Shown here in pieces: positions 1,459-23,100 of a DNA stretch of 27,068 bases. A program made the position numbers and the translations under genes. Positions within the stretch are counted from its first letter, which is position 1. Every line of letters starts with the position of its first letter. Origin of the DNA: a candidate division KSB1 bacterium (lineage in GTDB: Bacteria > Zhuqueibacterota > JdFR-76 > DREG01); assembly GCA_022566355.1 (NCBI GenBank), contig JADFJB010000059.1, positions 1 through 27,068 of the forward strand, read 5' to 3'. Under the pieces are notes generated by a model, which was not told the DNA's origin, did not search any database, and saw only the letters and a list, made by a program, of their open reading frames with translations.

Positions 1459-1653
1459 TTAGAGCTTTATCTCAAGCTGCGCACTCACCCTTCTATCTAA
1501 ATTGGCATTAATTTGATCCGCACCGCTGCCGATCACGTCGACGTCATCTCGGTATGTTTCAGCGTATTTTAAATAGGCCGCAAACATTTTGACGGGCCGG
1601 TACTTAAGAAAATACCAGCGGTTGCCGCCTCTCGCCTGAATTGGGCCCTGAAA
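1459..1653 (-). pseudogene. C-terminal fragment of an outer-membrane barrel protein (helix-hairpin-helix type suspected)
   Basis: One frame is open from 1653 to a TAA at 1459-1461 without a start codon. From about 1623 it reads NRWYFLKYRPVKMFAAYLKY and later DVIGSGADQINANLDRR, ending in QLEIKL. Such an ending (aromatic alternating strands, an IGSGxDxI-like turn, NxxR, then a strand ending at the C-terminus) resembles the tails of large barrel proteins with an N-terminal helix-hairpin-helix region in FCB bacteria; that assignment is from memory of the family. Its reading frame differs from that of the kinase stump which runs into it. I read it as the tail left after a deletion or rearrangement removed the rest of its gene. 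Confidence 0.55.
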
Positions 1654-1799
1654 TCAGGATTATCCGAGTAATCGGCGGAAAATATTTTGACGGCGGCCTT
1701 GCGGCCTAGCTCTAAATCCTCTGCGAGATATACCTCCCCCATCCCGCCTCGGCCAAGCTGCCTGATTATTTTGTAATGCGAAATCGTTTTACCAATCAT
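1569..1799 (-). pseudogene. N-terminal stump of a Hanks-type Ser/Thr protein kinase
   Basis: From an ATG at 1799 the protein starts MIGKTISHYKIIRQLGRGGM and contains the Gly-rich ATP loop (LGRGGMGEVYLAE), the beta-3 lysine (AVKI, K38) and the start of helix C (FRREA, E57). After about residue 60 kinase similarity stops. The next 16 residues are a frame-shifted reading of the barrel-tail fragment (1459-1653), and the frame ends at 1569. HRD, DFG and the whole C-lobe are missing, so it cannot be an active kinase (the family needs about 260 residues). Its N-terminus resembles the start of the second kinase domain at 20139-23687 (ETISHFKIIERLG). It follows the truncated phosphatase in the order expected of a PP2C-kinase pair, so it was probably once part of that operon. 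Confidence 0.75.
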
Positions 1800-1940: not shown

Positions 1941-2360
1941 TCAGATTGTGGACATAGTTTTAAATGTGGTTGGATAATAATTCTGAAAAAAAGTATTTGG
2001 AAGACAAGCAAGCACTGTACAAGTAGTTCCCATTCCCTGGTATTCAGGTTTATTTATAGAATAGCTGTAAATCTGGTGGTTTGCCGCCTCGAATGCTTTT
2101 CTAATACCTTTCGCAGCATCGTTGGTCGAATTTGAAAAATAGGCGCGTTGAACAGCGTCGACTGCCAATCTACTAGCTTCTTGCCCACCGCTGTGCCCTC
2201 CCATGCCGTCCGCAATGATGAATAGCTGCCCGTTTGGTACTGAGAGATCGTCGTTATCTGGAGGGAATTTACCATAACTATCCTGGTTCTCGCTTCGGAC
2301 CAACCCAATATCGGAATTATACCCGACTGTTATAGATAATTTTTTGCCTATCCTTAACAT
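1941..2360 (-). pseudogene. PP2C-family Ser/Thr phosphatase, C-terminally truncated
   Basis: PP2C (PPM/Stp1-type) enzymes remove phosphate from Ser/Thr and use two metal ions held by Asp residues. The first 118 residues fit well: SDIGLVRSENQD (metal Asp D27), IIADGMGGHSGG (D51) and GMGTTCTVL (109-117). After that the protein runs into ACLPNTFFQNYY and stops at 139 residues, about 100 short of the usual 240. The GDSR strand and the later DG and DN metal-binding motifs are absent. The downstream DNA to 1800 is AT-rich and shows no remainder in another frame. The start lies 1 base after the stop of the FAD-FHA-ferredoxin gene, so it was translated as part of that operon. It is unlikely to be an active phosphatase. 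A frameshift alone does not explain the loss. Confidence 0.8.
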
Positions 2361-2361
2361 T

Positions 2362-4710
2362 TTATTTCTGCTTTAGAATCTCCACCTCCACGGCCCCTTT
2401 CGGTCTTGACACACAGGCAAGGCGGTATTGATTCGGATCAAGGTCACAAATGTCTTCCAGAGTATCTCTTTCCTCGTCATCCATCTCATTCAGATTTTCT
2501 TTTCCTGAAATGATTCGGATCGGATCTCTACCACAACCTCCTGCATGACAATCCGCTTCGATGTCAACATCATTTTTCTCGGCGATCTCACATATGGATT
2601 GGCCCGGTGCTATCGGAAAACTCTTGCCCTCATTCTTAAAAGTCACAGCCATGTCTCTCTTTGGAGTTGGTTCGGAAGAGATTTTCGGTTCAGCCGGTCT
2701 CTCCGCCAATCCAGCTTCTGGTTGTTCCGTGGGTTTCTCGGTTACTATTGAAGCTTTGGATATTATGCTGAAATGAACATCAGGACGGACCTTTTCTTCT
2801 TCCAGGCTCAACCTAAGAGTCTGCCGGCCCACTCGAAATTGATCGCCATCCTCCAACTTTACAGCATTTTTGACCTTCAGATAGCTGCCGTTCATACTCC
2901 TTAGGTCTTTTATGAATAATCCTTCTTCTTTCACGGACATGGCGAGATGGCTGCGTGAAAGGGTCATGTCATTTTTTTGCAGCGTGATACCCGGTGACTG
3001 CCTTCCGACGACAATAGTTTTTTCCGGTAAGGTATAACGACCTATCTCTTTCCCTGTTTGATCATAATGAACAAAGCCATAACCGCCATTCTCTTTTCGA
3101 ATGAGCAAGAACTGTCTGCCGACACGCAAAAGATTCCCCGGTTCCGCTTTAATGTATCTGCCTTCCGGCGCTCGCAGGAAAACTCCGTTTGCACTGCCAT
3201 CATCGCGGAGAAAATAACCATCGGGTCCGTGCGAAACAGATGCATGCTTGTCCGATAACATCGTGTCGTCGGGAAAGTTAATATCACATTCTTTCCTGCC
3301 GATGGTAGCGACTTGATTCTTGAGCAAGGGATAGTGATCCTCATCGACATCGTCTTGAAGAACCCGGATAAGGTATGCCGGATGTTCTTCCTCTATACGG
3401 GCAGGTTCGACGCTTTCCTTCGGTGGGCCTTCGCTATCCACGACAGCCACGGGTTTCGAGATAGCCTCCTTAGCCTCTTCTACCTTTTTCTCTTCCTCAA
3501 CGAATTCCAACTCAACATGAATTTCGTCTTTTCCTGCCAGTTTCTGCGCAATCACTTCAACCACCTTAACCCCGTCAGTCACCGCGGATTTGATGTTGCC
3601 CAAATGCTTGATTTTTCGAAAGGATGCAGGGTCGGAGTCGAAATCATCGGTTTCAAAATGAGCCTTGCTCAAAATGTCCCCGATCAAATAGACGTTTGGC
3701 TGCTGGGTTTCCAGCAAAGGGGTTACAATCATACGCTTCTTGTTATCTGTTCCCGTTGCCATATAAATTCCTATTGAATTAAGGAACCGCTCTGGGATTT
3801 CCTGGCCGATGCAGGTAATACAGTTCTCTTTTGGAAATTCCAGGTGGGCGCTCTCATTGGGACGTCCGGGAATAACCTTGCGGTCAATTCGAACGGAGAG
3901 ATATTCCTTGCGATCCTCCGACGTAACAATCGCATTGGGTTCGCTGTGCGGAAGGTTGCAGATGTTGCCATTTCCCACAAATGCATCAAAAAAAACGTCT
4001 GCCAGGGCTTTGGAAACCAGGGGCATTTTGTCGCCTCGATGGGACCAAAACACTTCAGTTTTAACATTTGCCTCGGCTTTCGCATTGGATATGGCAATCA
4101 CTGCTTCGGCGGCCGATGTGCCTCCGCCTATTACACAAACAGGAGCGCTCACATAATTATCAGGATCCGAGAGTCGATAGGCGATCCCCTCGGTGTTGCC
4201 TGGTATGTCAAACCGCCGCGGCATTCCGGAACCAACTGAGAGTACGATGTGCTTCGCGAGTATAATTTCCTCTGACTTGGTATTATGGTTCCAGTTCTTC
4301 GTTTGCCAAATTCCATCTTTTCCGGGCTCCAGGCCGGTTAGCTCGACACCAACTTTTGCCGGAATATTATTTTCTCGATAGTAATTCTTCCACTTCCCAA
4401 ACATTTCATCCTTATCGATGGGAGAGAAGTGTAGTAAAGGAATTAGTTTATCTCCCTTGGGAAATCTCATTTTGTCAGCACCGCCGAAGCCTGGGAGCAG
4501 AAGCTTATCCTTGGCATAATCGCGGATCCGCTTCATCAAATCGTCAATATCGATCACCAGCGCGGAAAGCCCTAATTCTTTGGCGCGAAAGGCGGCGGCC
4601 GTTCCGCCCGGCCCGCCACCCACGATGAGGACATCCAGGACTTCCGGCAGCTTGACAGGCTCATTCAGTATAAATGTGCCGTCTTCCAGGATTTCTTTGT
4701 TTTTAGGCAT
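2362..4710 (-). CDS. FAD-dependent oxidoreductase fused to two FHA domains and a C-terminal ferredoxin domain
   Basis: This 782-residue protein is cytoplasmic, with no signal peptide or membrane span. Residues 25-395 form a thioredoxin-reductase/YpdA-like two-Rossmann flavoprotein: FAD loop GGGPGG (31-36), second dinucleotide loop GGGTSAAE (195-202), and VYLIGD (340-345), the usual FAD-contacting aspartate motif. A charged linker (400-440) leads to FHA 1 (GR 471-472, SDKH 486-489, ANG 507-509) and FHA 2 (GR 569-570, SRSH 585-588, MNG 606-608). After a Pro/Glu linker, residues 688-780 look like a [2Fe-2S] ferredoxin with C721, C726 and C766, but D729 occupies the usual third Cys position (CHAGGCGRD). 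A C297-x2-C300 pair in the flavoprotein part is also notable. It probably moves electrons between NAD(P)H and the adjacent Fe-S/cytochrome chain while docking phosphothreonine partners. The partners and direction are inference; the domain calls are firm. Confidence 0.88.
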   Translation of the reverse strand: MPKNKEILEDGTFILNEPVKLPEVLDVLIVGGGPGGTAAAFRAKELGLSALVIDIDDLMKRIRDYAKDKLLLPGFGGADKMRFPKGDKLIPLLHFSPIDKDEMFGKWKNYYRENNIPAKVGVELTGLEPGKDGIWQTKNWNHNTKSEEIILAKHIVLSVGSGMPRRFDIPGNTEGIAYRLSDPDNYVSAPVCVIGGGTSAAEAVIAISNAKAEANVKTEVFWSHRGDKMPLVSKALADVFFDAFVGNGNICNLPHSEPNAIVTSEDRKEYLSVRIDRKVIPGRPNESAHLEFPKENCITCIGQEIPERFLNSIGIYMATGTDNKKRMIVTPLLETQQPNVYLIGDILSKAHFETDDFDSDPASFRKIKHLGNIKSAVTDGVKVVEVIAQKLAGKDEIHVELEFVEEEKKVEEAKEAISKPVAVVDSEGPPKESVEPARIEEEHPAYLIRVLQDDVDEDHYPLLKNQVATIGRKECDINFPDDTMLSDKHASVSHGPDGYFLRDDGSANGVFLRAPEGRYIKAEPGNLLRVGRQFLLIRKENGGYGFVHYDQTGKEIGRYTLPEKTIVVGRQSPGITLQKNDMTLSRSHLAMSVKEEGLFIKDLRSMNGSYLKVKNAVKLEDGDQFRVGRQTLRLSLEEEKVRPDVHFSIISKASIVTEKPTEQPEAGLAERPAEPKISSEPTPKRDMAVTFKNEGKSFPIAPGQSICEIAEKNDVDIEADCHAGGCGRDPIRIISGKENLNEMDDEERDTLEDICDLDPNQYRLACVSRPKGAVEVEILKQK

Positions 4711-4793
4711 GAGTGGTAAGTTCCTTTAAAGGATTTCTTATTTCAATGATTTCTCATAAAACAGCAATCCCACCGATCCCATTGGGGACATCA

Positions 4794-5819
4794 TTATTTC
4801 GATAAAAGCTTTGCTTCCACCTTACCAAATTTGATGATAGCATCAGGCTCAACCTCAAATTCTGCCTCCATCTCTTTATCATCGAGGAATGTGTGGTTCT
4901 TGCTTTCCAGGTCTTTAATCTTTACTTTGTTAGAAGAAACTGTGACTCTCGCATGTTTCCGGGAGATTGACGGATCATCGATATGTATCTCGCATTGAGC
5001 AGACCGCCCAATTACATACTCACCTTCTTTCAATTTAAAAGTCTTGGACTCATCCTCAAGATTTGTAAATTCCAAGATGAGTTGTGGCGTCTCATGAACT
5101 GGCGATTCCTCCCGGGTTTTTTCCGCTTTAAGTTCTGGGATTTGTATGAAATCAGCGTCAAAAGTCGTCTCATTTGCTTTGGAATTTCGAACAACATCAG
5201 AATCAATATTTTCAGATTCGGAGATTCGCGGCAGCGGCAAGAATTCATCACCCATTTTAGTTTTGTCTGCCTCTGCGACCGCCGACTTTTCTTCCCCAGC
5301 ATCCTGCTCTTTGGCAATATCGGGTGGAGTTATAATCTCGTCATCGAACCTGGTTTTAGCGGTATCAACTTCCAGCTCTTGCCTGGTTTCCTGAGGTTTA
5401 CCTTCTTCCAATATCTGCGGTAATTGCACTGGTTCCGGATCAAACTTGGTCTGATGGATCTGTGCCTCAGGTTTTACCTGGGCTACTTCGGCATCGCCAT
5501 CTTTAGGTCTCGGTGAAACGTCCAAAACTTGAAATATGAATTCAAACACTTTTGCAAACGTAATGACATGCAGCTTGCCTAGCTTTTCTTTGCGTGTTAC
5601 CCTCATTCCATCGAGTTTTGTGCCGTTACGGCTGTTCAAGTCCTCCAGGTAATAGGATTTCCTGTCCTCATCAAAAGAGATTTGTGCATGGTTTCCTGAT
5701 ATCACGTTCGGATAAAGTACAATATCATTCTCCGGTTTAGAACCAATAGTAACCCTGCTTCCTACCTGGAATTCAGATCCAGCCAATTGACCGGTTTTGC
5801 AAAATAATTTAGCTTTCAT
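4794..5819 (-). CDS. two-FHA-domain protein with four TxFD-type repeats in the linker
   Basis: This 341-residue soluble protein has an FHA domain at each end. FHA 1 (about 5-95) has GS at 26-27 in place of the usual GR, GNHAQI (42-47) and NSRNGTKLDG (62-71). FHA 2 (about 248-338) has IGRSAQ (270-275), SISRKHARV (284-292) and ESKNHTF (305-311), where His replaces the Gly of the usual NG. FHA domains bind phosphothreonine peptides, often with Asp at +3. The acidic linker (101-245) carries four regularly spaced 13-residue cores starting at T124, T156, T187 and T218, three of them with the Thr-x-Phe-Asp pattern. It follows the 10-heme cytochrome by 15 bases and precedes the FAD-FHA-FHA-ferredoxin gene by 83 bases. 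An adaptor that is itself phosphorylated, in the style of GarA/OdhI, is the best inference; no enzyme activity is expected. Confidence 0.85.
   Translation of the reverse strand: MKAKLFCKTGQLAGSEFQVGSRVTIGSKPENDIVLYPNVISGNHAQISFDEDRKSYYLEDLNSRNGTKLDGMRVTRKEKLGKLHVITFAKVFEFIFQVLDVSPRPKDGDAEVAQVKPEAQIHQTKFDPEPVQLPQILEEGKPQETRQELEVDTAKTRFDDEIITPPDIAKEQDAGEEKSAVAEADKTKMGDEFLPLPRISESENIDSDVVRNSKANETTFDADFIQIPELKAEKTREESPVHETPQLILEFTNLEDESKTFKLKEGEYVIGRSAQCEIHIDDPSISRKHARVTVSSNKVKIKDLESKNHTFLDDKEMEAEFEVEPDAIIKFGKVEAKLLSK
5130..5450 (-). repeat. four 31-32-residue protein repeats encoded in the FHA-FHA linker
   Basis: Translated on the minus strand, the cores are TKFDPEPVQLPQI (124-136), TRFDDEIITPPDI (156-168), TKMGDEFLPLPRI (187-199) and TTFDADFIQIPEL (218-230), spaced 32, 31 and 31 residues apart. 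The consensus is T-x-F-D-x-[ED]-x-[VIL]-x-x-P-x-[IL]. The DNA copies have diverged, so what is conserved is the protein pattern, which points to selection on the motif. Confidence 0.8.
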
Positions 5820-5834
5820 TTTTACAGATTCAGA

Positions 5835-7385
5835 TTATTGGAAATACAACAACAAATTAGATCTTTGACTCTTGTTTGGATGAAAATAGTGACATGTAGT
5901 ACAGCGATTGGAAGTCAGTTTCGGTTGATGACATTCCTGACAGGTCTCGATCGTGGGTATATTCTGAATTGCTGCTCGATCTATGGATGCGTCTGGTTTA
6001 TTATTACTTGTGAGTATCTCTGTGAATGGAATTCCTGTATGACATTCTAAGCATCTTTTTTGCAAAATATGATCTCTATGATTGAATTCAGCCCGCCGTA
6101 AGACTCTTTGATCCTTCTGGACGCGAACAACAGTTGCATTTTCTACTTCATGACACATCTGGCAAGGTTGGGTGAGCTTGTCAACTAAACTCTCATATTT
6201 CTGGAAGTCATTTTCCGTTAATCTTGGATTCGGCTCCATGATACTCAAAAGGAATTTGGTGTCATCGAGAGTGCTGTAAGGGTCTCTAAGTCTTTTTTCA
6301 ATTTGCTTCAGTGCACGATCTATACTTACCAGGTCACTTTGCACCTGTCGCTCCGGACGCGCCCGCAGTTCAAGTAAATACTCTTTTAGTTTTGCAATTG
6401 CTTCTTCATACAACAGCTTCACTTCGTGAGCAGGCACATCTGCTGAAGCGGTAAGCAGATCTGCAATGCCGATATTCGGAAATATTCTTCGTCGTATCAA
6501 TTTCATATTCTCCATAATCCACGGATCTTTGTGGTAGATGGGAGATTTTCTTATGTTATTACCCCGTTTCCTGAATTCATTATGATTAACATAAAATGCC
6601 CACAGAGTACCTGGCCCTTTAAGTTTTTTGATACCCTGCAAAGTTTCAACACCAGGCGTGTTTGATCCGGTTCTGATTGGCAGCCAGGGAGTATTTATAC
6701 TGGAGGTAAGGTGACACGTATCACAGTGCCGGTCAAAGCTAATCGCTTCAAAACTCTTGCCGTCGGATTTGGTATTATGACAACGCAGACAAGCCTTTTC
6801 AATGTCGACCAGGTTTTCTCGTTGCATTACCCTGTTCACATGGTCAATGTGGGTGAATTTTAGACCCGAATTATCCGGAATCTTCTGTGCGGCAAATTCA
6901 AATTCAGGATGCTTTTGATTGAACGAACCAAACTGATGGCATTTGAGGCATTGTGAATCAGTCAGTTTAGTAATGTTTGCATCACGCCCTAAGTGTTCTG
7001 CATGGCACGAGAAACATGGCGTTTCACTTACGGAAGAAACAAGCCGTCGAAAATCATCGGAACGATAAAGATAATGTGAATCGTAAGAATAAACACCTAG
7101 TTTATCCCCAAATTTTTCGTGACACACATTGCACTTTTCATTAGTAACAGATGCAAACTGATCGTGACAGGCGGCACAATCGTTTCCAAAATTTGCATGG
7201 TTTGACGATAACGGCCCGTTGGATATGAAGCTACTTTCTTGAAAGTTTATGTTGATTAATGCGTAACATAAAATTAAAGCAGCCGCCACAACTCCAATCC
7301 ATATCATGTTTTTGCGGGACGGTGGGAAAATATATTTCTTTGAAATTGGGAGGTTGCTATCCCCAAATGTGCCTTTTCTTCGCAT
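5835..7385 (-). CDS. membrane-anchored decaheme c-type cytochrome
   Basis: This 516-residue protein has ten CXXCH heme-binding motifs at residues 70, 85, 124, 146, 199, 221, 408, 445, 482 and 495. One N-terminal membrane span (about 27-46, IWIGVVAAALILCYAL) has no obvious cleavage site, so the protein is probably tethered to the inner membrane with its hemes in the periplasm. The hemes form an N-terminal group of six and a C-terminal group of four. Between them lies a heme-free segment (230-405) with a long charged helical part (about 320-400). Additional His residues (for example in THIDH, NHRDH, KHPEF) can serve as distal ligands. It sits between the cytochrome b and the FHA genes and is the natural periplasmic electron acceptor or donor for the membrane cytochrome b. 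The exact family is unclear; the arrangement recalls NapC/NirT-fed multiheme cytochromes without being one. Confidence 0.88.
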   Translation of the reverse strand: MRRKGTFGDSNLPISKKYIFPPSRKNMIWIGVVAAALILCYALININFQESSFISNGPLSSNHANFGNDCAACHDQFASVTNEKCNVCHEKFGDKLGVYSYDSHYLYRSDDFRRLVSSVSETPCFSCHAEHLGRDANITKLTDSQCLKCHQFGSFNQKHPEFEFAAQKIPDNSGLKFTHIDHVNRVMQRENLVDIEKACLRCHNTKSDGKSFEAISFDRHCDTCHLTSSINTPWLPIRTGSNTPGVETLQGIKKLKGPGTLWAFYVNHNEFRKRGNNIRKSPIYHKDPWIMENMKLIRRRIFPNIGIADLLTASADVPAHEVKLLYEEAIAKLKEYLLELRARPERQVQSDLVSIDRALKQIEKRLRDPYSTLDDTKFLLSIMEPNPRLTENDFQKYESLVDKLTQPCQMCHEVENATVVRVQKDQRVLRRAEFNHRDHILQKRCLECHTGIPFTEILTSNNKPDASIDRAAIQNIPTIETCQECHQPKLTSNRCTTCHYFHPNKSQRSNLLLYFQ

Positions 7386-7428
7386 CCTGGCTTCTTTATT
7401 TTATGCTAAATTAATCCAGTGACTTCAT

Positions 7429-8277
7429 CTAATAATAGAATACTGAGTAAAGATGTAATCCTACTAGAACGATTAGAACGATTGATACGGGAATGTGAAG
7501 GTAAAGCCACCAGCGTAATGCCTTTTGTAGTGTATAGTGTGCATCAAATTCCAGTTTGGTTTTGTATATTTGTTCTAATTGATCTAGTTTTTCCCTTTGT
7601 TCTGCCGGCAGTAGCTTGCGCAAATAGCTGAAATGTTTTGTTTGAGTCCGGATTCCACCCGTGATATCCATATAATAAATCCATCGTGTTTCCGGTCCGA
7701 CAAATGCCGCGGCCAAACTGTTTTGGTAGAACTCCCTAATGGATTCGTCGCAGCTTTCGATTATTTCCTCTGCCCTTTGCCTGATTTCGTGAATGAGTTC
7801 TGGAATTCTCTCATAATGAATTTCGTATTTAAGACCTGAAGTAAGTGCTCTTGGAATCCACTTTTGCAGAATTACGCCCAAGATCCCACTCAAAGTAATC
7901 CATATGCTTAAGTACCACAACCAGATTGTAAGTGTGCCTGTTGGGTAACGAAAACCGGTGTGCATAAAGACCAGGAGCAGGAACAACGTACCCCCGTAGA
8001 CATGGAACTGAACCCAGGTGTGTGATCTGCCCAGACCCAGCTTTGAAACCCATTTCATCCGCCGCCGCCGAATGCCATAGGCTGCAGCGCCCAGCACAAG
8101 AATGGCGGCCGCGATACCATAGCCGATACCCCAGTTGCTGCCGGGATGAACTTGCCAGAAAGAAGCATTGATCAGATAAATCGCGAAACATACAATGCAT
8201 GAGATGACAAACGCCCAAAACCATAAACGCGATCTTACCCAAAACTTGATATAGAATGTGTTATCTTGCGGACTCAT
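7429..8277 (-). CDS. di-heme cytochrome b-type membrane protein
   Basis: From the ATG at 8277 this is a 282-residue protein with about five membrane spans. Two helices each carry a His pair 14 residues apart, H92/H106 (FHVYGG...FMHTG) and H261/H275 (YLHIPV...GLHLYS). This is the classic arrangement for two stacked b hemes crossing a membrane. A soluble helical loop (about 145-255) separates them. I chose ATG 8277 over a GTG 42 bases upstream, which would lie deeper inside the Fe-S gene and add a polar leader. The chosen start still overlaps the Fe-S gene's end by 17 bases, implying translational coupling. By position it should pass electrons between the four-cluster Fe-S protein (or quinone) and the 10-heme cytochrome. 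It resembles ferric-reductase-like or b561-like transmembrane cytochromes, but I cannot name a family with certainty. Confidence 0.82.
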   Translation of the reverse strand: MSPQDNTFYIKFWVRSRLWFWAFVISCIVCFAIYLINASFWQVHPGSNWGIGYGIAAAILVLGAAAYGIRRRRMKWVSKLGLGRSHTWVQFHVYGGTLFLLLVFMHTGFRYPTGTLTIWLWYLSIWITLSGILGVILQKWIPRALTSGLKYEIHYERIPELIHEIRQRAEEIIESCDESIREFYQNSLAAAFVGPETRWIYYMDITGGIRTQTKHFSYLRKLLPAEQREKLDQLEQIYKTKLEFDAHYTLQKALRWWLYLHIPVSIVLIVLVGLHLYSVFYY

Positions 8278-9913
8278 TGGTTGATAACAATTGCTGGAAT
8301 TCCTCGATGCTGCCCACACGGAAGGCGCAGCCGTGTGGACAATTGCTTACACATGCCGGTCCGTGTCCGGTATCATAACATAAATCACATTTTGTGGCCA
8401 GAAGGCGTTTTGTACCGCGCAGGCCTTGTGGTACCATATCACCGGGCCAAACTTCTCCGGTATCAAACATAGTGATCGCATCATAAGGGCAATTATTCGC
8501 ACAGGATTGGCAGCCGATGCATAATTTCTCATCTATGGCCACCACGTCTCCCACGTTGGTGCGGTGAATGGCTCCGGTCGGACATCCAACCAGACAAACG
8601 GGATCACGGCAATGGTAACATGCGCGCGTAATGAGGAGGTTATCGTATTTCTCACCTTCGCGCACAAACCTGGGCAGTCCGCCATGCGTGTCCGCACATC
8701 CCTTCATGCAGTCGTCGCAACGCGTACAAATATTTGTGTCAATCACCAGAATACTGTTCCCCTGCACCAAACCCTTTTCGAGAGCAAACTCAATGAACTC
8801 CGACTGGCCTATGTTCTTCTTGTTGGAACCGGTTTCTTTGATTCTGGCTATGGCTGCTTGCCACAATTGTCTCTCAATTCCGGGGAATTGCTGCATCACT
8901 TGCTTCATATCGTCATAGTTTATCTTGATCAGTTCCGAGAACTCCACGGAGGATGCAGTAAGGTAGCAGCCGTCTAAATCCTGGATGAGCAATTCCACTT
9001 CACCAAGGGTCATCCCCTTGGACAAATAGGATACCACAATTTGATTGTCACCAATCGCCTGCGAAAGTTTTACAAATCCGGAACGCACAATGTAAAGTGC
9101 ATCGCTGGAATCACTTTCATGAACAATGATTTGATCCGGCTCACAGGACAACAACTCTACTTTCTCCTTAAGTGCGCTGATAAAACTATCTTCGCAATTC
9201 CGGAATAACGGGGTCAACTTAAGCTGCGCAAACAGAGACCTATCTCTATAAGCCTTATCAATCCGATCCTTGAAAGCCGTGGATTTTCGTCTCATCAAGC
9301 GTAGTGCGGGCACCCGCACTTGAACGATTTCACAGTCCGATACGGTTCGAGCCGTCACCGACTGCGGCCATCCACTCAAGGCTCCGATCTCGCCAAAGAT
9401 TTCTCCGGGCCCCAGTGTCACCTTATCCCCTATCGGTATATTGAAGTCCATTACGGACAAAAACACCAGGTCGGCTTGCTGTTTACCCTGCTTTTTGATT
9501 TGGGTGTGAAAAACGGTATCCGAAAGCGATACTTTTTCGCGATCTCTCGCCTGGGTTTGCGCTTCGCTGAATACTTGGGTTCGGTGCGAATCGAATCTGG
9601 GGCTGCCCAATTGTGTATCGGTCTGCACTTTGGAAAGATAGACCTCAACGCTGCCCTTGACTACAAAAAATGCCAGATCGAGATAGGAACCTTCCTCAAA
9701 AATGATGGCGTCCTTCTTCCATTTCGCAACAGAGATATCCGTACTGATCCTTTCTAGAAACTTGTCATCATAGTCCTTAAACGGGGCATACTTTTTTAAT
9801 TCATTTGGTGACAATTTTTCTGATAATTCTAGTATTCCGGTACTGGCGCCATAGGAACTCCAGCGGTCTCGGTATTGCTCTAAACGTTTAATTTGAGTGG
9901 GTGTAGTTACCAT
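8261..9913 (-). CDS. two CNB-like domains fused to a four-cluster [4Fe-4S] electron-transfer subunit
   Basis: This 550-residue cytoplasmic protein has no Tat or Sec signal. Residues about 43-210 and 235-350 are cyclic-nucleotide-binding (Crp-like) beta rolls: GEIFGEIGALSGWPQS (170-185) and GMTLGEVELLIQD (300-312). The first has a roughly 50-residue insertion (100-150). In both, the conserved Arg that binds the cyclic-nucleotide phosphate is absent (Gln184 in the first, none near Gly315 in the second). Residues 390-535 form an HybA/DmsB/NrfC-type ferredoxin with 16 cysteines for four [4Fe-4S] clusters: C396/399/402/406, C432/435/440/444, C465/468/471/475 and C509/512/521/525. No DNA-binding domain is present. 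It is probably the cytoplasmic electron-wire subunit of a membrane complex with the overlapping cytochrome b, its rate set by a ligand or partner bound to the beta rolls. Confidence 0.88.
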   Translation of the reverse strand: MVTTPTQIKRLEQYRDRWSSYGASTGILELSEKLSPNELKKYAPFKDYDDKFLERISTDISVAKWKKDAIIFEEGSYLDLAFFVVKGSVEVYLSKVQTDTQLGSPRFDSHRTQVFSEAQTQARDREKVSLSDTVFHTQIKKQGKQQADLVFLSVMDFNIPIGDKVTLGPGEIFGEIGALSGWPQSVTARTVSDCEIVQVRVPALRLMRRKSTAFKDRIDKAYRDRSLFAQLKLTPLFRNCEDSFISALKEKVELLSCEPDQIIVHESDSSDALYIVRSGFVKLSQAIGDNQIVVSYLSKGMTLGEVELLIQDLDGCYLTASSVEFSELIKINYDDMKQVMQQFPGIERQLWQAAIARIKETGSNKKNIGQSEFIEFALEKGLVQGNSILVIDTNICTRCDDCMKGCADTHGGLPRFVREGEKYDNLLITRACYHCRDPVCLVGCPTGAIHRTNVGDVVAIDEKLCIGCQSCANNCPYDAITMFDTGEVWPGDMVPQGLRGTKRLLATKCDLCYDTGHGPACVSNCPHGCAFRVGSIEEFQQLLSTNESAR

Positions 9914-9965
9914 GTTAAATTCAATAGATTATGCAAGAAGGAAGCCTTGCGGAATCAAAATCGTT

Positions 9966-12020
9966 TTATTGCTGGCGTCCAATTTGTTCATATAAAAGTT
10001 CTATCCGTTTCTTTAAGATGAGTAATATTTCCTCAATCGATGTGCTGTCGTTAATAGCCGGAAATGGCGGTAGTTTGATATTCTTCTTTTCGATAAGCTG
10101 ACCAGGGTTTATGTTCACTGGTGGCGGTATTGGTGGCGTGACATCTGTTGGCTTCTGGCGATCTGCAACCCTTGTCTGGCTTAAACCAGCTTCTTGGGAT
10201 TCGGTTGGTAGTCTGCGCGAAACGATTTCAACTTCAGGAATGGCGCCTCTTTTCCGTTTTGTTTCCGCGTAGGCAGTCCCCAGTTCTTCAACGCTGACAA
10301 TTGGGCTCTCCCAATGTATAATTTTTTTATTCCACTCTACCAAATTGAAAGTTTTCCCTTTTGGACGTCCCGTACCGGTTGGATGCCCTGCGGATATTAA
10401 CCTTGGGTCGGTGATATAATGACATTGTGCACAGGCTTCCGCCCTAATGCCCACATTCTCTAATTGAACCATACCAAATTTTTCACCCTCCAGGTAAGCC
10501 CTTCCTTCCTCCTGATGGGGTTTGTTATATCCACTTGCAGGTCCATGGCAGCTTTCACAACTGACGCCATCGAATACTTGTTCAGATGCTTGATCCGTAA
10601 TGATCGTTCCGTGGCAATCCATACAGAGATTATCTCCCCGGGTCATATCTAAAACACTAAGACCGTAATTTCTTGCTAATTGAATATTTTTTTGAGTTTT
10701 ATTAAAAAATGGCTCTGCCGAATTAAAGTGCTTATCTGATTCCCACCATTTAATCTGATCGGAGTGACAATTGCAACCTGGAAAAATCGTCTTGAACTTT
10801 GACCGAGGCCGAATATAGTTTTTCTTTGCATAAACCGGAGGCGGATTACTCTCTGTCTCAGCTTGAGCTTCGCCGGCTGGTTTTAATTTCTTGTCGACTA
10901 TGGAAACTTGATCCGTAATGGTTGTGGATTCCGGTTTTTCAAGCGTATCAATCGTTTCGACTACAAACAGGTTTTCCGTTCCTGCAATCACACCGTCTAG
11001 AGCAGTAAGCTCACTGCCATCATTTCTACTGATAAATGTTTTGGTGGCTTCGCTGATTTTTGCAGCTACATCCAAAAGAGCAGATTCGTTGTTTGGCCCG
11101 ATATTTACATCACCAAGCAGGCTTAGCATATCCTGAACTTCCTTAATTGCTATCCTTTTCTGAATTGCCATAAGGCTGTTAACGACGCTCCTTACTCTCC
11201 TATTCATTGCGCGGCCATAACCGCCGGTCTCTTTTGACACAGCCATGCCACGAATGCTATACTCCAAATCCACCGCTTTGCCAACAACATAAAGGATGCG
11301 GTTTTGTTCTTGTGATCGCTCCGCGTTTTCACTTCGCGAGGGGTCAAATTGAGCCTGTAGAAAATTGTGTCGAATCTCATCAATCCGATCAAGTAAATCG
11401 AAATCGCGACTACCACTTGTATGCCCCCCGACATTCACTAGTTTTTCGTGCGGGACTGTATGGCATTGAAAGCAGTTTGCCACAACTCCGTAAACCTCAG
11501 ACGGCCGCAACATCCCATTTTTTTTACTTTCCAGAATTCGCTGTTCCTCGTGCTCGGCCGATTCTGTGTTATATTTCGCTCCTGGTCCGTAATTATTATG
11601 AACATCAATCCAATCTTTGGCTGCACCGTGGCAGGATTCGCAAGAGACACCTGATATTGCACGAAGCTGTTCATTTTTTATAACACCGGTATAATGACAT
11701 TTCAAGCACAAGCTCTCCCGCTTAATAAATTTAAAACTCATATTTTTTGTGATTCTTTCGGCTAATTCTTTGCGGTGAAGCGTCTTAAAACTGGTGGAGT
11801 GCTTGGTCTTTTCCCACACACCATATTCTAATTGGTGACATTCGTTGCACGGCTTCGCTGTTACAATCTTTTTGGGATCGTGCCAAAGAAATTTCTCCTT
11901 CGTGGTTTCCTGGGCTGAACTTGTTGAAAAGCCGGACCCGGAAACAATCCCCAAAAGAACCCAATAGGTGAAATTCTGTAATCGTGATTTCATTTTTAGT
12001 AAACCAATAATTTGAGTCAT
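9966..12020 (-). CDS. periplasmic or outer-membrane multiheme cytochrome c (7 CXXCH plus one CXCH)
   Basis: This 684-residue protein has a signal peptide; cleavage is likely near SSAQE (34-38). The ATG at 11993 (residue 10) gives a cleaner signal and is a plausible true start. It is built as two related four-heme modules. Module 1 has CXXCH at 58, 105, 127 and 183. Module 2 has CNCH at 416 and CXXCH at 466, 488 and 530. Both share a GVSCESCHG core and a K-x-G-M segment, so they arose by duplication; the first heme site of module 2 has lost one residue between its cysteines. A heme-free helical segment (about 205-400) joins them. The tail is Pro-rich and ends in a helix (660-682). The heme layout resembles the cytochrome c554 group. 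It lies immediately downstream of the porin (5-base gap), as expected for a porin-cytochrome conduit. Confidence 0.85.
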   Translation of the reverse strand: MTQIIGLLKMKSRLQNFTYWVLLGIVSGSGFSTSSAQETTKEKFLWHDPKKIVTAKPCNECHQLEYGVWEKTKHSTSFKTLHRKELAERITKNMSFKFIKRESLCLKCHYTGVIKNEQLRAISGVSCESCHGAAKDWIDVHNNYGPGAKYNTESAEHEEQRILESKKNGMLRPSEVYGVVANCFQCHTVPHEKLVNVGGHTSGSRDFDLLDRIDEIRHNFLQAQFDPSRSENAERSQEQNRILYVVGKAVDLEYSIRGMAVSKETGGYGRAMNRRVRSVVNSLMAIQKRIAIKEVQDMLSLLGDVNIGPNNESALLDVAAKISEATKTFISRNDGSELTALDGVIAGTENLFVVETIDTLEKPESTTITDQVSIVDKKLKPAGEAQAETESNPPPVYAKKNYIRPRSKFKTIFPGCNCHSDQIKWWESDKHFNSAEPFFNKTQKNIQLARNYGLSVLDMTRGDNLCMDCHGTIITDQASEQVFDGVSCESCHGPASGYNKPHQEEGRAYLEGEKFGMVQLENVGIRAEACAQCHYITDPRLISAGHPTGTGRPKGKTFNLVEWNKKIIHWESPIVSVEELGTAYAETKRKRGAIPEVEIVSRRLPTESQEAGLSQTRVADRQKPTDVTPPIPPPVNINPGQLIEKKNIKLPPFPAINDSTSIEEILLILKKRIELLYEQIGRQQ

Positions 12021-12025
12021 CCGTT

Positions 12026-13540
12026 CTAAAATCTGAATAAAAGCTCCAGTCGCCCACCAAAACGGAATTCATTTGTGCTAACAGGTACGTCGAACTCGTA
12101 CACAGCAAATCCATCCACAACAATAATTCCTCTCCTGCCAAAAGCCGATTGAAAACGTGCACCTCCGGCCACGGCAGATTGATCGTCGTCTAACGAACTA
12201 TGTCTGCCACCCAGCTCAAAAAGAAGTTGTTTTCGGGTATGAGCGAAAAACATTTGATAACCCAACGCTCCACCCAGCGATTCATCTGCCCGGTTGACCA
12301 ATGGCGATCCCGCCGCGCCGAGGCGGCCCAATCCAACGCTAGCAAACAGGATACCTGTGCGACCAAGAGGGCCGCCCATTGCAGGTCCGCGAGTTGCAGA
12401 CCGAAAATTCTTGATGCCCCAAAAGCTGTTGAAATAGATCAAATTATGATTGCCTTGCGGGGTCCAGGATATTTCGCTGAACAGAAGGACGCCCTGTTCG
12501 TTGTGCTGACTTTCTTCACCTATTGGCAAGGAGCTCACAACCCGGAAGGATGTATTATATTTACCCAGGCGTTGGACTGCGCTCAATCCAGCATAAATTC
12601 CATCCCCGGTAATCGGGTTAGAATTAATATAAACAACATCGAAAGCCACTGTACTTTTTCGCCAGTCGGTTTCGGTAAAGAATCCGACCATTGAGGCGCT
12701 GCTATCCTGCTCGGGTAAATTGGTCCGATTAATCTGGTTCCAGCCGTACAGAAGGGTCCAACGAAAATTGACTGCTCCAAATTTTTTCCCGTTGATTTTG
12801 GTTATTCCTACAGCGTCGATGTTATCATTAATAAGCAACCCTTCTTGAAAGCTAATTAATTGCCGTCCCACTGAGAAACCGAAATCGAGACCGCGTTTAT
12901 CATCTCTGTCCAAATTGGGAAAGAGTTCACCAAATTCACCTTCGAAAAATAGCGTCGTTAGTTCGAAATTCAACTCATCTTCAAAACCATTATTTAATGG
13001 ATCGGGTTGAAAAGTAACCCCTGTAAATCTGCCATTCTGATCGAGTGGACGAAAACCGAACAAAAGCCTTTCTGTAAACGTTAGATACAGATTTCCAAAT
13101 AAATCGAAGCGGTTTGCCCATTCGGACACTTGCGTAGTTCCGTTGTCAAAGGTCTGCAATCCCGTTCGGTAAGTACCGAAGGCAATAAAATAGGGCTGCC
13201 ACACTGCTCCGGTTGGAAGCTTAATGCCTTGATTTAGGGTTCCGGTTCCAAGAAATTTCTGCCCAATCTCAAGAAGAGGTTTTGGCCTTTGAGGGAAATT
13301 TTTTAATTGCAACGGTATATACTTATCAGTTATTCGACTATCGTGTTTGCCCTTATGCTTTTTGTCATCATTTTTGTTATTATTGGCTTTATCATTTCTT
13401 TTGAGTGTATCTGCCTGGATTATAGAAGTTAATCTCTCCATTCCAAAAAAAGGATTGGAAAACGCGTTGCCCCAAAAAATAAGGCAAAAAATGGATCCAG
13501 TGGTCAAATATCGAAGAAATTTTAAAATAGAATGGGTCAA
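12026..13540 (-). CDS. outer-membrane porin-like beta-barrel between two cytochrome genes
   Basis: The start is TTG at 13540, 7 bases after the upstream stop. It is chosen because it supplies the signal peptide (residues 8-28, ending NAFSNP), and later ATGs would remove it. A purine-rich AGAGGGG lies upstream. The 504-residue product has an odd Lys/Asn/Asp/His-rich segment after the signal (48-69). A long series of amphipathic strands follows, with aromatic girdles and Gly/Asn turns, and the last residues are LELLFRF. A C-terminal Phe is typical of Bam-inserted barrels. There is no heme motif. Flanked by 5-heme and 7/8-heme cytochromes, it is a good candidate for the barrel sheath of an extracellular electron conduit, comparable in role to MtrB or the Geobacter porin-cytochrome systems. 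I see no clear sequence relation to those families. Confidence 0.75.
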   Translation of the reverse strand: MTHSILKFLRYLTTGSIFCLIFWGNAFSNPFFGMERLTSIIQADTLKRNDKANNNKNDDKKHKGKHDSRITDKYIPLQLKNFPQRPKPLLEIGQKFLGTGTLNQGIKLPTGAVWQPYFIAFGTYRTGLQTFDNGTTQVSEWANRFDLFGNLYLTFTERLLFGFRPLDQNGRFTGVTFQPDPLNNGFEDELNFELTTLFFEGEFGELFPNLDRDDKRGLDFGFSVGRQLISFQEGLLINDNIDAVGITKINGKKFGAVNFRWTLLYGWNQINRTNLPEQDSSASMVGFFTETDWRKSTVAFDVVYINSNPITGDGIYAGLSAVQRLGKYNTSFRVVSSLPIGEESQHNEQGVLLFSEISWTPQGNHNLIYFNSFWGIKNFRSATRGPAMGGPLGRTGILFASVGLGRLGAAGSPLVNRADESLGGALGYQMFFAHTRKQLLFELGGRHSSLDDDQSAVAGGARFQSAFGRRGIIVVDGFAVYEFDVPVSTNEFRFGGRLELLFRF

Positions 13541-13547
13541 CGTAGCT

Positions 13548-15371
13548 TTATTTCCCCTCTTTAGAATTATTATTATTCTGTGTTGATTGAATATCAGAGG
13601 ATATCCTGCCAGGCTTCAAATTTATATTGCGCTCCCATAAGACCAGATGGCCGGCAAGAACTTTATCGGCCACTTCACGAGCTGACATATTATAGTCAAA
13701 TCCAACGTCTTTAATCTCATGGACAAGGTTAATAGGAACCATCCCTGCAATCAATTTAATATTGGCGTTATAAGGAGCAATGCTTCCAGCCAGTTCAGAA
13801 GACTTCACTTCATACCTGGGCCACTTACTGGTAAGCGGTGGCAATACCGTTCTGTGCTTTCGCGCTCCCACCGGGCGTCCCAGCAAAATAGTCGATCTTG
13901 TTGAAGGTCGTAAAAATGGCAAAGGACTGGAAGAATAATTCAACGCCAAAACCTGTTCGCGTTCACCACCTCGTAGCAATCTGACAAGAAATTTTGATTG
14001 TAGGTTGAATAAATATTTGTCTTGAGGAAGTTCACCATTATGCACGTAGAGTGAATGAGCGTCCCGGAGATCGCCATTGGGGTCTTGATCACCGGACTTA
14101 AAAACAACCTTCCCCTGGCTATCGGTAACAGTCACCTGGAGAAATACCACGCGTTCGGCATCAAAGCCGGTTGGGACACTATGGCCGTCTGTAACATTGC
14201 TCACTTGAACTTTAAAAACGATACCCGAGTTATCCGCTTTCTCAATGAGTATCTCGCCTAATTCGTAACCTGCCCGCAGCACTTGCTTTCGCTGCTTCTC
14301 ACTTTCTTTTAATGATTTGAGATTCTCTGCGATTATGTCTCGAGCATCATAGCGGTCATCAACAGAAGTCCACCGAGGTGGAAACTCGAATCCTTCCGGG
14401 ATGCTATCTTCAAATTCATCTGTGCCCCAACCTGCTTCATAATCAAAGGTCAACCATTCGCGGATAGTTGCCAAATCGGCAGCTTGTGAATTGTGCGGAA
14501 AAATACCCGGGTGTATCACAGAATAGTCCGGACCTGCGAACATATGGTTGGTTCGCTTTCGTGGTTTGGTCAGCTTACCGCCAACAATAGCTGCAGGAGC
14601 TATTTCGTACCCTAAAGGTTTACCCGGCTCCTTTCCCATGTGGCAGTCTTGGCAGGACACACCTTTCTTGCTTGCGGGTGAAGTTTTGTAATCGCTAAAT
14701 GCTTCCTCTAATCGAAATCCGTTCACAAGATTAACGTCGTGGCAAGTAGCACAAAATCCTGAAGTCGACATTTGATCTAATTTTATAATGTTGGTGTGAA
14801 TTGCTCGTCCTGGTTTGCCTCGCTCAGTATTGACATTGTATTCGCCACTTGAAATCACGCGACTGAGTTCTTCATTTCCTGTTGGGCCAAATACCGTATC
14901 AAAAATATCGCCTTCAACAATAGCCAACCTGCCACTAACCTTGCCGTAGGCATTCTTTAAGCGATGGCAAACAATACAGGTTACTCCTTCCCGCGAGGTT
15001 GGGTGGCGATCTATATTGGTCATAAATTCGGGTTCATTTTGATTCATGCCAACCGGGTTATGGCAACGAATACAGAAATCGCCGTTGGTACCATTCGTAA
15101 TTTTTAAGACCGTGGCTTGCATAGCGTTAAAGATGGGGCTCATCTGGGCATAAGCATGCGGTGAGACAGCCCAATCCCGATAATGATCAGGATGGCATGT
15201 CCTGCAGGTTGCGGCAGAAGGAAATTTTGCTTCCAAAAGCGCGTCATTTTCGTTAGAAGATTGTGCGGAAAGTAGATCGGGGAATAAAAGCAAAATCATT
15301 ATGCAAGCTAAACTGAAATTCTGAAAAAAATGAAGAGCACTACTTTGCCGGTAAGATATGTATATAGTCAT
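13548..15371 (-). CDS. pentaheme c-type cytochrome with C-terminal beta-rich domain
   Basis: This 607-residue exported protein has a hydrophobic signal at about 14-36 with cleavage near SAQS. Five CXXCH motifs lie at residues 56, 100, 132, 207 and 240, within the first 250 residues, in a pattern close to the cytochrome c554/multiheme family (CRTCHPDHYRDW, later CQDCHMG). Residues about 375-570 are heme-free and beta-rich, including GHSVPTGFDAERVV, a motif often found after the heme region in this group. The ATG at 15371 is preceded by TTAGGA about 8-13 bases upstream. It is the first gene of the tightly spaced redox block, with the porin 7 bases further on. It may be the surface or periplasmic partner of that porin. 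Whether it ends up outside the cell cannot be told; no lipobox Cys follows the signal. Confidence 0.87.
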   Translation of the reverse strand: MTIYISYRQSSALHFFQNFSLACIMILLLFPDLLSAQSSNENDALLEAKFPSAATCRTCHPDHYRDWAVSPHAYAQMSPIFNAMQATVLKITNGTNGDFCIRCHNPVGMNQNEPEFMTNIDRHPTSREGVTCIVCHRLKNAYGKVSGRLAIVEGDIFDTVFGPTGNEELSRVISSGEYNVNTERGKPGRAIHTNIIKLDQMSTSGFCATCHDVNLVNGFRLEEAFSDYKTSPASKKGVSCQDCHMGKEPGKPLGYEIAPAAIVGGKLTKPRKRTNHMFAGPDYSVIHPGIFPHNSQAADLATIREWLTFDYEAGWGTDEFEDSIPEGFEFPPRWTSVDDRYDARDIIAENLKSLKESEKQRKQVLRAGYELGEILIEKADNSGIVFKVQVSNVTDGHSVPTGFDAERVVFLQVTVTDSQGKVVFKSGDQDPNGDLRDAHSLYVHNGELPQDKYLFNLQSKFLVRLLRGGEREQVLALNYSSSPLPFLRPSTRSTILLGRPVGARKHRTVLPPLTSKWPRYEVKSSELAGSIAPYNANIKLIAGMVPINLVHEIKDVGFDYNMSAREVADKVLAGHLVLWERNINLKPGRISSDIQSTQNNNNSKEGK

Positions 15372-15506: not shown

Positions 15507-15536
15507 ATCAAAGATTTTAACAACTTATTTTGTCAA
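15507..15536 (-). promoter_or_regulatory. candidate sigma70-type promoter for the redox operon
   Basis: On the minus strand TTGACA (15531-15536) is followed after 18 bases by TTTGAT (15507-15512). The -35 box overlaps the last codons of the secreted-protein gene. It lies about 135 bases upstream of the pentaheme cytochrome start. The -35 is perfect, the -10 weak (4 of 6). Confidence 0.35.
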
Positions 15537-20138: not shown

Positions 20139-23100
20139 TCATCTGATTTTCTTGAGTGTAAACTTTAAAGGTTTCATGTTTTCCTCAAAATTGATCACCC
20201 GTTCACCGCCTTCGAGAACATAACCCTCTCGTCTTACTGAGATCTCTTTTAAACCCACAGACACCTTAATTTCTTTTGGTGTTACCTGACCAATGTCTTC
20301 GTTGTCTATATAAATTCTTCCCCAGGTTAGTTTTCCTTCCGAATCCTGAGAGAGAATGGTAACTGCCACCTTTTTGTTGAAATCGATTGGAATATCCAGG
20401 GTTTTGTCTTGTTGGATTTCTACTGCCTTTTGCCACGTACCCAAGGTCGGATGTACAACACTTATCTTATGGCGGCCAACTTGCAGCTCCATAGAAAACT
20501 GGGCGAAGGCGTCTTTTTTCTGTAGCCTGTCATCTATATAAATGGATCCAAACGGCCGCACCAGCATCTTTAATCCTCCGATTAAAGCGATCAGTTTTCC
20601 ATTAGTCTGATTCACTTCGTTAGGTTCTAATGCTATGACAGTTTCGTAGTCTTCATACCCCTCTTTCCGCAGGATAATATTGTATGAACCAATTTTCTTG
20701 TTTTGTTGGTAAGGAGTAGTACCCTCAATCTGGCCATTCAGGATAATTGAGGCACCGGAGGGTTCTGAAGTAATGTCGATAGCGCCGGTTAACACAGCTA
20801 AATTTGCCTCAATGGGGGTCAATATATTTGGACGCACATTAATAGCTTGTGAAAAATCTTGATATCCCTCGAGGCTGACCATGACTTCATAATTGTTGAC
20901 TGCCATATTTTTGTTCTTATAAGGGGTGTTTCCTACTTTTTTCCCATTTAACCACACCGAGGCTCCTGAAGGGTACGAGGTAACGATTAGTTCACCGACA
21001 TCAACGGGGATTTCAATTAATTTTTCCCCTTTGTCGGCATTTGCAACCTCGGATTTATTATCGTCTCTTTGCCTGGCCGGTACAGTGAGTGAATCGCCAT
21101 CTGGCGCCAGGGTTTCCGTGTTGGCATTTTTAGCTTCTGATGTTAGGTTAAGCGTTGCTTGTTTTACATCAGCAACAGAGCCAGAGATTTCAGCCTCATC
21201 TCCCTGCCTTAAATCCTGCCAATAGTACCAGCCTCCTACAAAGCCTGTGATAATTATGATAGCAGTCAAAGTATATAATAAAGTTTGGGGACGATTTCTT
21301 CCTACTTCAATGGATCTAGCAACCCCTGCTTTCTTTAGCTTACTCTCTATACTTTTTTCCGCTATTTTCAGTCCGCTACTTGCATCTTTATTTTGAGGTT
21401 CAATTTCCAGTATTCTCTTATACGTTTCAATGGCTTGCTCAAATTTTTTCTTGCCTAAGTACGCTTGCGCTTTCGATATTAGTTCATCAACCCGTTCTAA
21501 CAGTTCTATCTTTTTTTGAATCTTTTCAATGAAATCAGCAGATTCTTTATGTTCAGGGTCTACGGAAAGAATCTGCTCGAACGCATTTAGGGCCTCTTTA
21601 TATTTGCCATTTTCAAAATGGCCCCTTCCCGCAGTCAAAAGTTTGCTGATCTGGTGTACTTCTTCTTGTTTTTGTTTACATTGGTCAATTAAGTCAAGCA
21701 ATTCTTGATCCTTAGGATCAAGAATTGATGCAGCTTCAAATCTTGATAAAGCATCGCTGTATTCCTTTGTATCAAAATAATCCTTGCCGTTTTCTATCAG
21801 CATTGCCAGTTCTGCTGACCGTTTCGATTGCGTTTTCTTAGCCTTAAAAAGCTGCTGATCAATATTTTCAAGATCATCCAATACTTCTTGCATGGAAGCA
21901 TATCTGTCATTAACCTCCTTTTTTAGGGCTTTAGTTATTACCTGCTCAAGTTGAGAAGGGATTTTTGGATTCTGTTCAGTTACAGCAATTGGATTTTCGT
22001 TAACAATCGAATAAAGCATGGCCGCTTCGTATTCAGCTTCAAACGGCAATTTACCAGTCAAAATCTCGTAGATCAGCACACCGAACGACCAAATATCACT
22101 GCGGTGGTCTAAGTCAAGGCCTTTAACTTGTTCTGGTGACATGTATGGCAGTGTGCCTAGGGTGGTGCCCGGTGTAGTGATTTTTGTGCCACCTGTGAGC
22201 TTAGCAAGTCCAAAATCGACAATTTTCACTTGACCTTCGGTTGTGATAATGATGTTCGCTGGCTTGATGTCTCGATGGACGATGCTATGCTTATGGGCTT
22301 CAGCCAAACCGCTGGCGATTTGCTTAAGGACATTGAGACACTCTAAAATCTCCATTTTGTATTTGATACATTTTTCTCTTAAGTCTTCTCCTTCATAGTA
22401 GGCCATGCAAATGAACATCAGACCATCCTCAGTATCATTTATTTCATGGATGGTGCCAATATTAGGATGGTCAAGAGCTGATGCGGCCCGTGCTTCTTTC
22501 AAAAAACGCTTTTTGGCTGTAGTGTCGCGAGTCAAGTCAGGTGACAAAAACTTAAGAGCTACGACACGGTTTAGTGTGATATCCTTGGCTTTGTAAACCA
22601 CTCCCATTCCACCCCCGCCAAGCCTTTCAATAATTTTAAAATGAGAAATTGTCTCGCCGGCAATCCGCCCAGTCAAAATCTTAATTGTTGCAGATTCTCT
22701 TTCCCTGTCTATCAATCTTTTAATATTTAAGTTTGCTTCTTTGTGATTCGGATCAATACGCAAGACTTCATTAAATTTCAGAATGGCATCATTGAGTCGA
22801 TCCTGCTCTGCAAGCAAATGGGCTTCTTCTAGTAAATCTTTTGTCCTTCTTTCCTTTTGTGCTTTGTCAAGAACGGTTTCTAAATCCTTTAATAAATCAG
22901 AGCAATTATCATATCTTGAATCCACATTTTTCTCAAGACATTTTGATAGAATAGTCTGTATCTCATTTACTAGGCCGCTTTCCTTTAAGTCTATTTTTTC
23001 AGGTTCCTCGTGCAAAATTCTGTACAAAACGGTAGTATCATCTCCTTCAAATGGTTTTTTATAGGTCAAAAACTCATAGAAGAGAACCCCAAAGGAAAAA

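Follow-up and report, generated by a model that had tools for sequence, protein, structure and literature searches.

The closest described system is the PCC4 cluster (He et al. 2017), an outer-membrane conduit type. According to the parts of that paper that deal with PCC4 (PMC5566968), the cluster comprises a porin, 4-, 5- and 10-heme periplasmic cytochromes and a five-TM IMP, and in subgroup II a PF13247 Fe-S gene lies upstream of the IMP. The IMPs of PCC3 and PCC4 carry a common signature, SGXXG on TM4 and WX3HX13H on both TM3 and TM5. In the same parts, PCC4 is known from iron oxidisers and Hyphomicrobium, and quinone exchange is proposed for this class of cytochrome b, which is likened to bc1 and hydrogenase-I b subunits (PMC5566968). 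In its passages on Group-1 PCC, a 2026 study (PMC13264449) reports a large decaheme and a porin of approximately 20 strands, with a ferredoxin-NADP reductase nearby.

The window, the whole stretch of 27,068 nucleotides analysed from a candidate division KSB1 bacterium, contains a cluster that resembles PCC4 in its porin, its 5- and 10-heme cytochromes and a PF13247 gene that immediately precedes the gene of a five-helix IMP with both motifs. Because these features occur together with the cytochrome b signature, the cluster is placed with PCC4, a putative assignment made by gene content and motifs rather than by sequence comparison with the PCC4 type genomes. As the preliminary description claimed, the cluster consists of nine consecutive, closely spaced or overlapping genes: all nine ORFs are found, every one on the minus strand, and the gaps in transcription order are 7, 5, 52, -59, 43, 15, 83 and 1 bases. 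The domain content given there is likewise borne out by Pfam, heme counts, a barrel model and the His motifs of cytochrome b. Among the electron-chain genes, Pfam recognizes the 10-heme cytochrome, two cNMP_binding domains with Fer4 (PF13247), and C554-type cytochromes; the other matches are Pyr_redox with two FHA domains and Fer2, a pair of FHA domains, and the N-terminal part only of PP2C_2. The three multiheme cytochromes contain 5, 7 and 10 CXXCH motifs, and an Rfam search of the window gives no match. The gene directly upstream of the operon (15525-19148) encodes a secreted protein of 1207 aa, which has Ig-like domains and, at its C terminus, a sorting domain.

Outer modules and inner-membrane core

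The first gene (13548..15371, minus strand, as are all operon genes below) encodes C5, a secreted 5-heme cytochrome with a Cytochrome_C554/NapC-like heme region and a C-terminal non-heme domain; the N-terminal heme part resembles PDB chain 5ze8, "cytochrome c552". The product of 12026..13540 has no match in Pfam, and no relatives of it are found on plasmids. Its AlphaFold model (pLDDT 68) is an outer-membrane beta-barrel of approximately 18-20 strands, with MOMP, AlgE and OprD as the best PDB matches. The low-confidence model is smaller than the MtrB-type sheath expected for a wire, a point against the conduit reading, and any heme chain through the barrel is putative. C7, a periplasmic cytochrome (9966..12020), contains seven CXXCH motifs and one CX1CH site (GCNCH, 10764..10775), where many relatives carry an eighth CXXCH. 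This third cytochrome, with 7/8 hemes in the window, has 3 or 4 in several related loci and 4 in the published outline of PCC4.

The C-terminal part of C7 matches the 3-heme protein (C3) of an alternative outer module, and two interchangeable modules are in fact found on one core: C5-barrel-C7, as in the window, or an HbpS-like protein, a barrel, a 10-heme LVIVD cytochrome and C3. Over 24 rows of the FAD-protein tree, the module type switches at least four times. The cluster may be read as a periplasmic or outer-membrane reductase that contains no wire, in which the 5-heme or LVIVD cytochrome is the terminal enzyme and the barrel is a channel for a soluble substrate. The modest size of the barrel model and its likeness to substrate-type porins, the match of the C5 heme part to a solved cytochrome c552, and the HbpS-like haem-protein gene of the alternative module all agree with such an enzyme; however, no known catalytic site is identified, and two outer cytochrome modules on one core fit a general conduit at least equally, so that we regard the reductase as unlikely.

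The fourth gene (8261..9913) encodes a CNB-CNB-[4Fe-4S]x4 protein (PF00027 twice; PF13247, E 2e-9) without TM, presumed to be cytoplasmic, and overlaps the start of the cytochrome b gene. A canonical cNMP-binding (CRP/CNB) sensor has a conserved Arg in the phosphate-binding cassette. The cassettes are non-canonical in both CNB domains of this protein; across 35 relatives the CNB1 cassette GWPQSVTA is nearly invariant, and Gln replaces the phosphate-binding Arg in 34. This invariant cassette possibly points to a different ligand or to a structural role. A gene 9 kb upstream of the operon (24369-25406) codes for a class III nucleotide cyclase that carries a fused FHA domain. It was considered as a cNMP source for the CNB protein and dropped, being unlinked in other loci and CNB1 lacking the Arg.

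The next gene (7429..8319) encodes a five-helix di-heme cytochrome b with the PCC3/PCC4 IMP signature: four invariant His (106, 120, 275 and 289) in two WX3HX13H motifs, and SGXXG. A Foldseek search with this protein gives no significant match, and in a fold comparison heme-b proteins appear at Z 6.4-7.8 amid unrelated helical bundles. C10, the 10-heme cytochrome (5835..7385), has one N-terminal TM and a conserved predicted cytosolic tail (7305..7376), the consensus of which, KGxF[GS]xxxLxVxxxYxxPxxR, is found in 41 of 43 relatives. The TxxD of the window's tail was rejected as a phospho-site, since Thr is present in only 14 of 41 relatives.

Conservation and gene fusions

Near- or full-length FAD-FHA relatives are present in 8 other genomes among the 59 of the same phylum that were searched, all outside the taxonomic order to which the window belongs, and in one genome (G056) the eight-gene operon recurs with its gene order unchanged. 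A scan of a species-genome collection with an alignment query, an earlier single-protein query having returned none, reveals 49 loci in about ten phyla; a scan of viral contigs finds no relatives. By profile annotation, the recurrent core order is CNB-[4Fe-4S], di-heme cytochrome b, C10, FHA-FHA and FAD-FHA-FHA-Fer2, found in KSB1, Ignavibacteriota, Chlorobiota, Zixibacteria, Acidobacteriota, Nitrospirota, Rhodothermota, Bacteroidota and Gemmatimonadota; in a Myxococcota locus the core genes are rearranged. The distribution is patchy, with 6 positives among 297 genomes of Acidobacteriota. The FAD-protein tree tracks phyla almost fully, with 10 changes where the minimum is 9, which suggests that the system is old rather than recently spread.

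Within KSB1, the FAD protein and cytochrome b occur together in 8 genomes, cytochrome b alone in 3, the FAD protein alone in 1 and neither in 47 (Fisher 6e-7, an indicative value because the genomes are related). The core genes are also fused. On megaplasmid pMSHV of Sphingobium herbicidovorans, a single FAD-CNB-CNB-4Fe4S protein is followed by cytochrome b and by a 10-heme cytochrome whose N-terminal domain is FHA-like (weak FHA match, E 0.005; Yop-YscD, 4e-6), and the LVIVD module adjoins these fused genes. The CNB-[4Fe-4S] protein is fused to cytochrome b in KSB1 genomes and in a Nitrospirota locus. These fusions tie the parts of the system together. An apparent FHA2-FAD fusion in L028/L046 was discarded, the frame crossing a stretch of N.

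In loci L024, L026 and L027 and in KSB1 family f16, the FAD-FHA and PP2C genes are separated from the cytochromes, and the f16 arrangement would be expected if an unrelated operon for Ser/Thr phospho-signalling had come to lie behind a PCC4 cluster by chance. Linkage in the large majority of loci from many phyla and the Sphingobium fusions, which join FHA to the 10-heme cytochrome and FAD to the CNB-FeS protein, make such chance neighbourhood very improbable. The preliminary description named singly scattered homologues as the case that would speak against one functional unit; order and fusions are instead conserved across phyla. Since the gene set recurs in about ten phyla, it is a real and largely unstudied machine, not a local accident, kin to a conduit type that has been described briefly, and it probably moves electrons between the inside of the cell and the outer surface, with readers of protein phosphorylation at its inner end. 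Three KSB1 genomes (G013, G028 and G030) retain the conduit and a kinase and have no FAD-FHA gene, so the flavoprotein is not obligatory.

Flavoprotein and phosphothreonine layer

The flavoprotein (2362..4710) is a fusion of an FAD/NAD(P) oxidoreductase (Pyr_redox), two FHA domains and a [2Fe-2S] domain. Its second FHA domain is canonical and nearly invariant: the pThr-binding residues (GR, S-R-x-H and N-G) are present, with G569, R570, S585 and N607 conserved in all 52 relatives, R586 in 51 and H588 in 48. In the first FHA domains of both the flavoprotein and the adaptor, these residues are partly kept. The Fer2 domain (2398..2637) departs from the four-Cys plant type, with C-x4-C-x2-D where C-x4-C-x2-C is expected; the third cluster ligand is Asp in 41 of 46 sequences. 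An extra Cys (C707) is present in most Asp-type relatives and is usually missing where the third Cys is kept, a pattern that would possibly reflect a ligand swap.

The adaptor (4794..5819) is an FHA-linker-FHA protein whose second FHA domain is near-canonical, with the binding residues kept in 41-44 of 46 relatives. Scores of FHA domains against OdhI/FhaB models are below the family cut-offs. The selectivity of FHA domains is often set by the residue at +3 from the phospho-Thr, which is acidic for some. The linker (5157..5450) carries four repeats at a spacing of 31-32 residues, three with candidate phosphothreonine sites of the form T-x-Phi-D (TKFD, TRFD and TTFD) and one degenerate (TKMG). 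Across adaptor linkers, T-x-Phi-[D/E] occurs 54 times against 10.5 +/- 3.1 in shuffled sequences (maximum 23 in 2000 shuffles), an approximately five-fold excess in counts that are non-independent because the sequences are related. Control versions of the motif (Ser, reversed and basic) are near expectation, with no clear enrichment.

The last gene (1941..2360) is the remnant of a PP2C phosphatase, of which the N-terminal half is left (139 aa, against approximately 269 in relatives), and just behind it is the decayed N-terminal remnant of a Ser/Thr kinase (1572..1799, minus strand), best matched by the operon-linked kinase of a related locus, L030 (58% over 64 aa). In the window itself, both the phosphatase and the kinase next to it are dead. 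An intact dual Ser/Thr kinase-TPR-PEGA protein (20139..23687, minus strand) is encoded approximately 5 kb upstream of the operon and is homologous to a kinase encoded just behind the operon in G035; it possibly supplies the lost kinase activity. Of about 31 loci whose sequence continues downstream for at least 1.5 kb, 11 have a Ser/Thr kinase gene no more than 1 kb from the FAD gene, and one more (L040) has PP2C without a kinase, so that a kinase or PP2C adjoins about two fifths of the testable loci and about three fifths have no nearby kinase. Genomes contain 3-53 kinase domains; in one there are 3 in 4.2 Mb, one of them inside the operon. The adjacency is far above random placement, as judged on genomes picked partly after the adjacency was seen. 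The claim that the operon encodes phosphothreonine readers is upheld by the canonical FHA residues and the repeatedly adjacent kinase and phosphatase genes. In the Sphingobium locus (L138), a metallophosphoesterase gene (15940-16788) directly follows the FHA-10-heme gene, in the place that PP2C or a kinase takes in other loci.

Proposed electron path and comparison with known systems

From the observed gene content, order, conservation, motifs and fusions, a PCC4-class trans-envelope conduit with a cytosolic NAD(P)H inlet, outward flow and phosphothreonine gating is proposed, a reading that we hold at about even confidence. Electrons would pass from NAD(P)H to the FAD and Fer2 groups of the fusion protein and to the four [4Fe-4S] clusters of the CNB protein, then cross the inner membrane by way of the two b hemes to reach the anchored C10, and from there to the 7/8-heme periplasmic cytochrome and the 5-heme cytochrome at the barrel. 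At the membrane, the transfer would be similar to that in NOX or ferric reductase, with the flavin inside, two b hemes across the membrane and a multiheme chain as the acceptor. Ser/Thr kinases may phosphorylate Thr in the T-x-Phi-D/E repeats of the adaptor linker, the FHA domains of the adaptor and flavoprotein may read the phospho-Thr, and docking or release of the flavoprotein would gate the flow from NAD(P)H, with PP2C reversing the phosphorylation. A trans-envelope multiheme chain, as claimed in the preliminary description, is supported. That the genes provide each step starting with NAD(P)H, as claimed there, is presumptive: the transfer from the flavoprotein to the CNB protein is a proposal, and the CNB domains are without the canonical Arg.

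The flow may instead be inward and linked to quinone, as in the model of He et al.: an extracellular donor such as Fe(II) or Mn(II) would deliver electrons through the porin and cytochromes to cytochrome b and quinone, and the FAD, CNB and FHA proteins would serve only in regulation or on a side branch. The occurrence of PCC4 in iron oxidisers and Hyphomicrobium and the likening of this cytochrome b to bc1 and hydrogenase-I b subunits agree with uptake, and heme-copper oxidase genes, found in 11 of 12 genomes checked, provide an electron sink. However, in nearly all loci cytochrome b has a flavoprotein or a multi-cluster Fe-S protein as its neighbour or fused to it, and flavoproteins of several different types occupy that place; we regard quinone-linked uptake as a serious rival, though a less likely one than NAD(P)H-driven flow. 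In the KSB1 PCC3-like loci (L125-L128, L131, L134 and L137), a [4Fe-4S]2-FAD protein (approximately 430-475 aa) precedes the di-heme cytochrome b and a 20-heme cytochrome, and in several a 28-43-heme cytochrome and a gene of barrel size are found as well; cytochrome b stands between the flavoprotein and these large cytochromes. On plasmid pSLIN01 of Spirosoma linguale (L139, 10817-14438), the gene of an FNR-type FAD/NAD/Fer2 protein adjoins those of a related cytochrome b and a 7-heme cytochrome, with copper-handling genes alongside. Because different flavoproteins, [4Fe-4S]2-FAD or FNR-Fer2, recur at this class of cytochrome b, gated outward flow driven by NAD(P)H is favoured. A more specific proposal is offered tentatively: a NOX-like transmembrane NAD(P)H dehydrogenase, gated by phosphothreonine, would circumvent the quinone pool and supply interchangeable outer-membrane cytochrome modules in about ten phyla, as a respiratory or redox-export conduit that Ser/Thr kinases switch by way of FHA domains. 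If it is true, widespread outer-membrane conduits of mostly uncultured phyla are wired to cytosolic NAD(P)H under eukaryote-like kinases, and a kinase-regulated, NAD(P)H-fed conduit would add a new principle to extracellular electron transfer. The fused version on the plasmid of the cultured S. herbicidovorans makes the predictions testable.

The statement in the preliminary description that no described system has this composition is unsupported as worded, in view of PCC4 (PMC5566968) and the 2026 group (PMC13264449). Group-1 PCC is taken to be the alternative outer module seen here; the window has the other module, and FHA, CNB and kinase genes are without mention in the passages on that group. 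PCC3 shares with the window a cytochrome b of the same class, which in KSB1 loci is beside a flavoprotein, and differs in its 20-heme and 28-43-heme cytochromes and in having no CNB or FHA. NOX and ferric reductase (FRD) likewise hold two b hemes in HX13H pairs, with the NAD(P)H-flavin side presumed inside, whereas the window's flavoprotein is separate and of the Pyr_redox type and the acceptor is a multiheme cytochrome. The adaptor resembles GarA/OdhI in being an FHA protein that bears its own candidate phospho-Thr segment, but it has two FHA domains, linker repeats and no known TCA-cycle target. A 10-heme "forkhead-associated protein", tabulated in 27 of 87 Gallionellaceae iron oxidisers (PMC10734462), is consistent with an FHA-C10 fusion. 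In open-licence papers no description of FHA together with multiheme clusters was found, and the PCC4 passages (PMC5566968) make no mention of the FAD-FHA-FHA-Fer2, FHA-FHA and kinase/PP2C genes. The part of the system for which these papers yielded no description is the phosphothreonine layer, consisting of the invariant FHA domain of the flavoprotein, the linker motifs and the adjacent kinase and PP2C genes.
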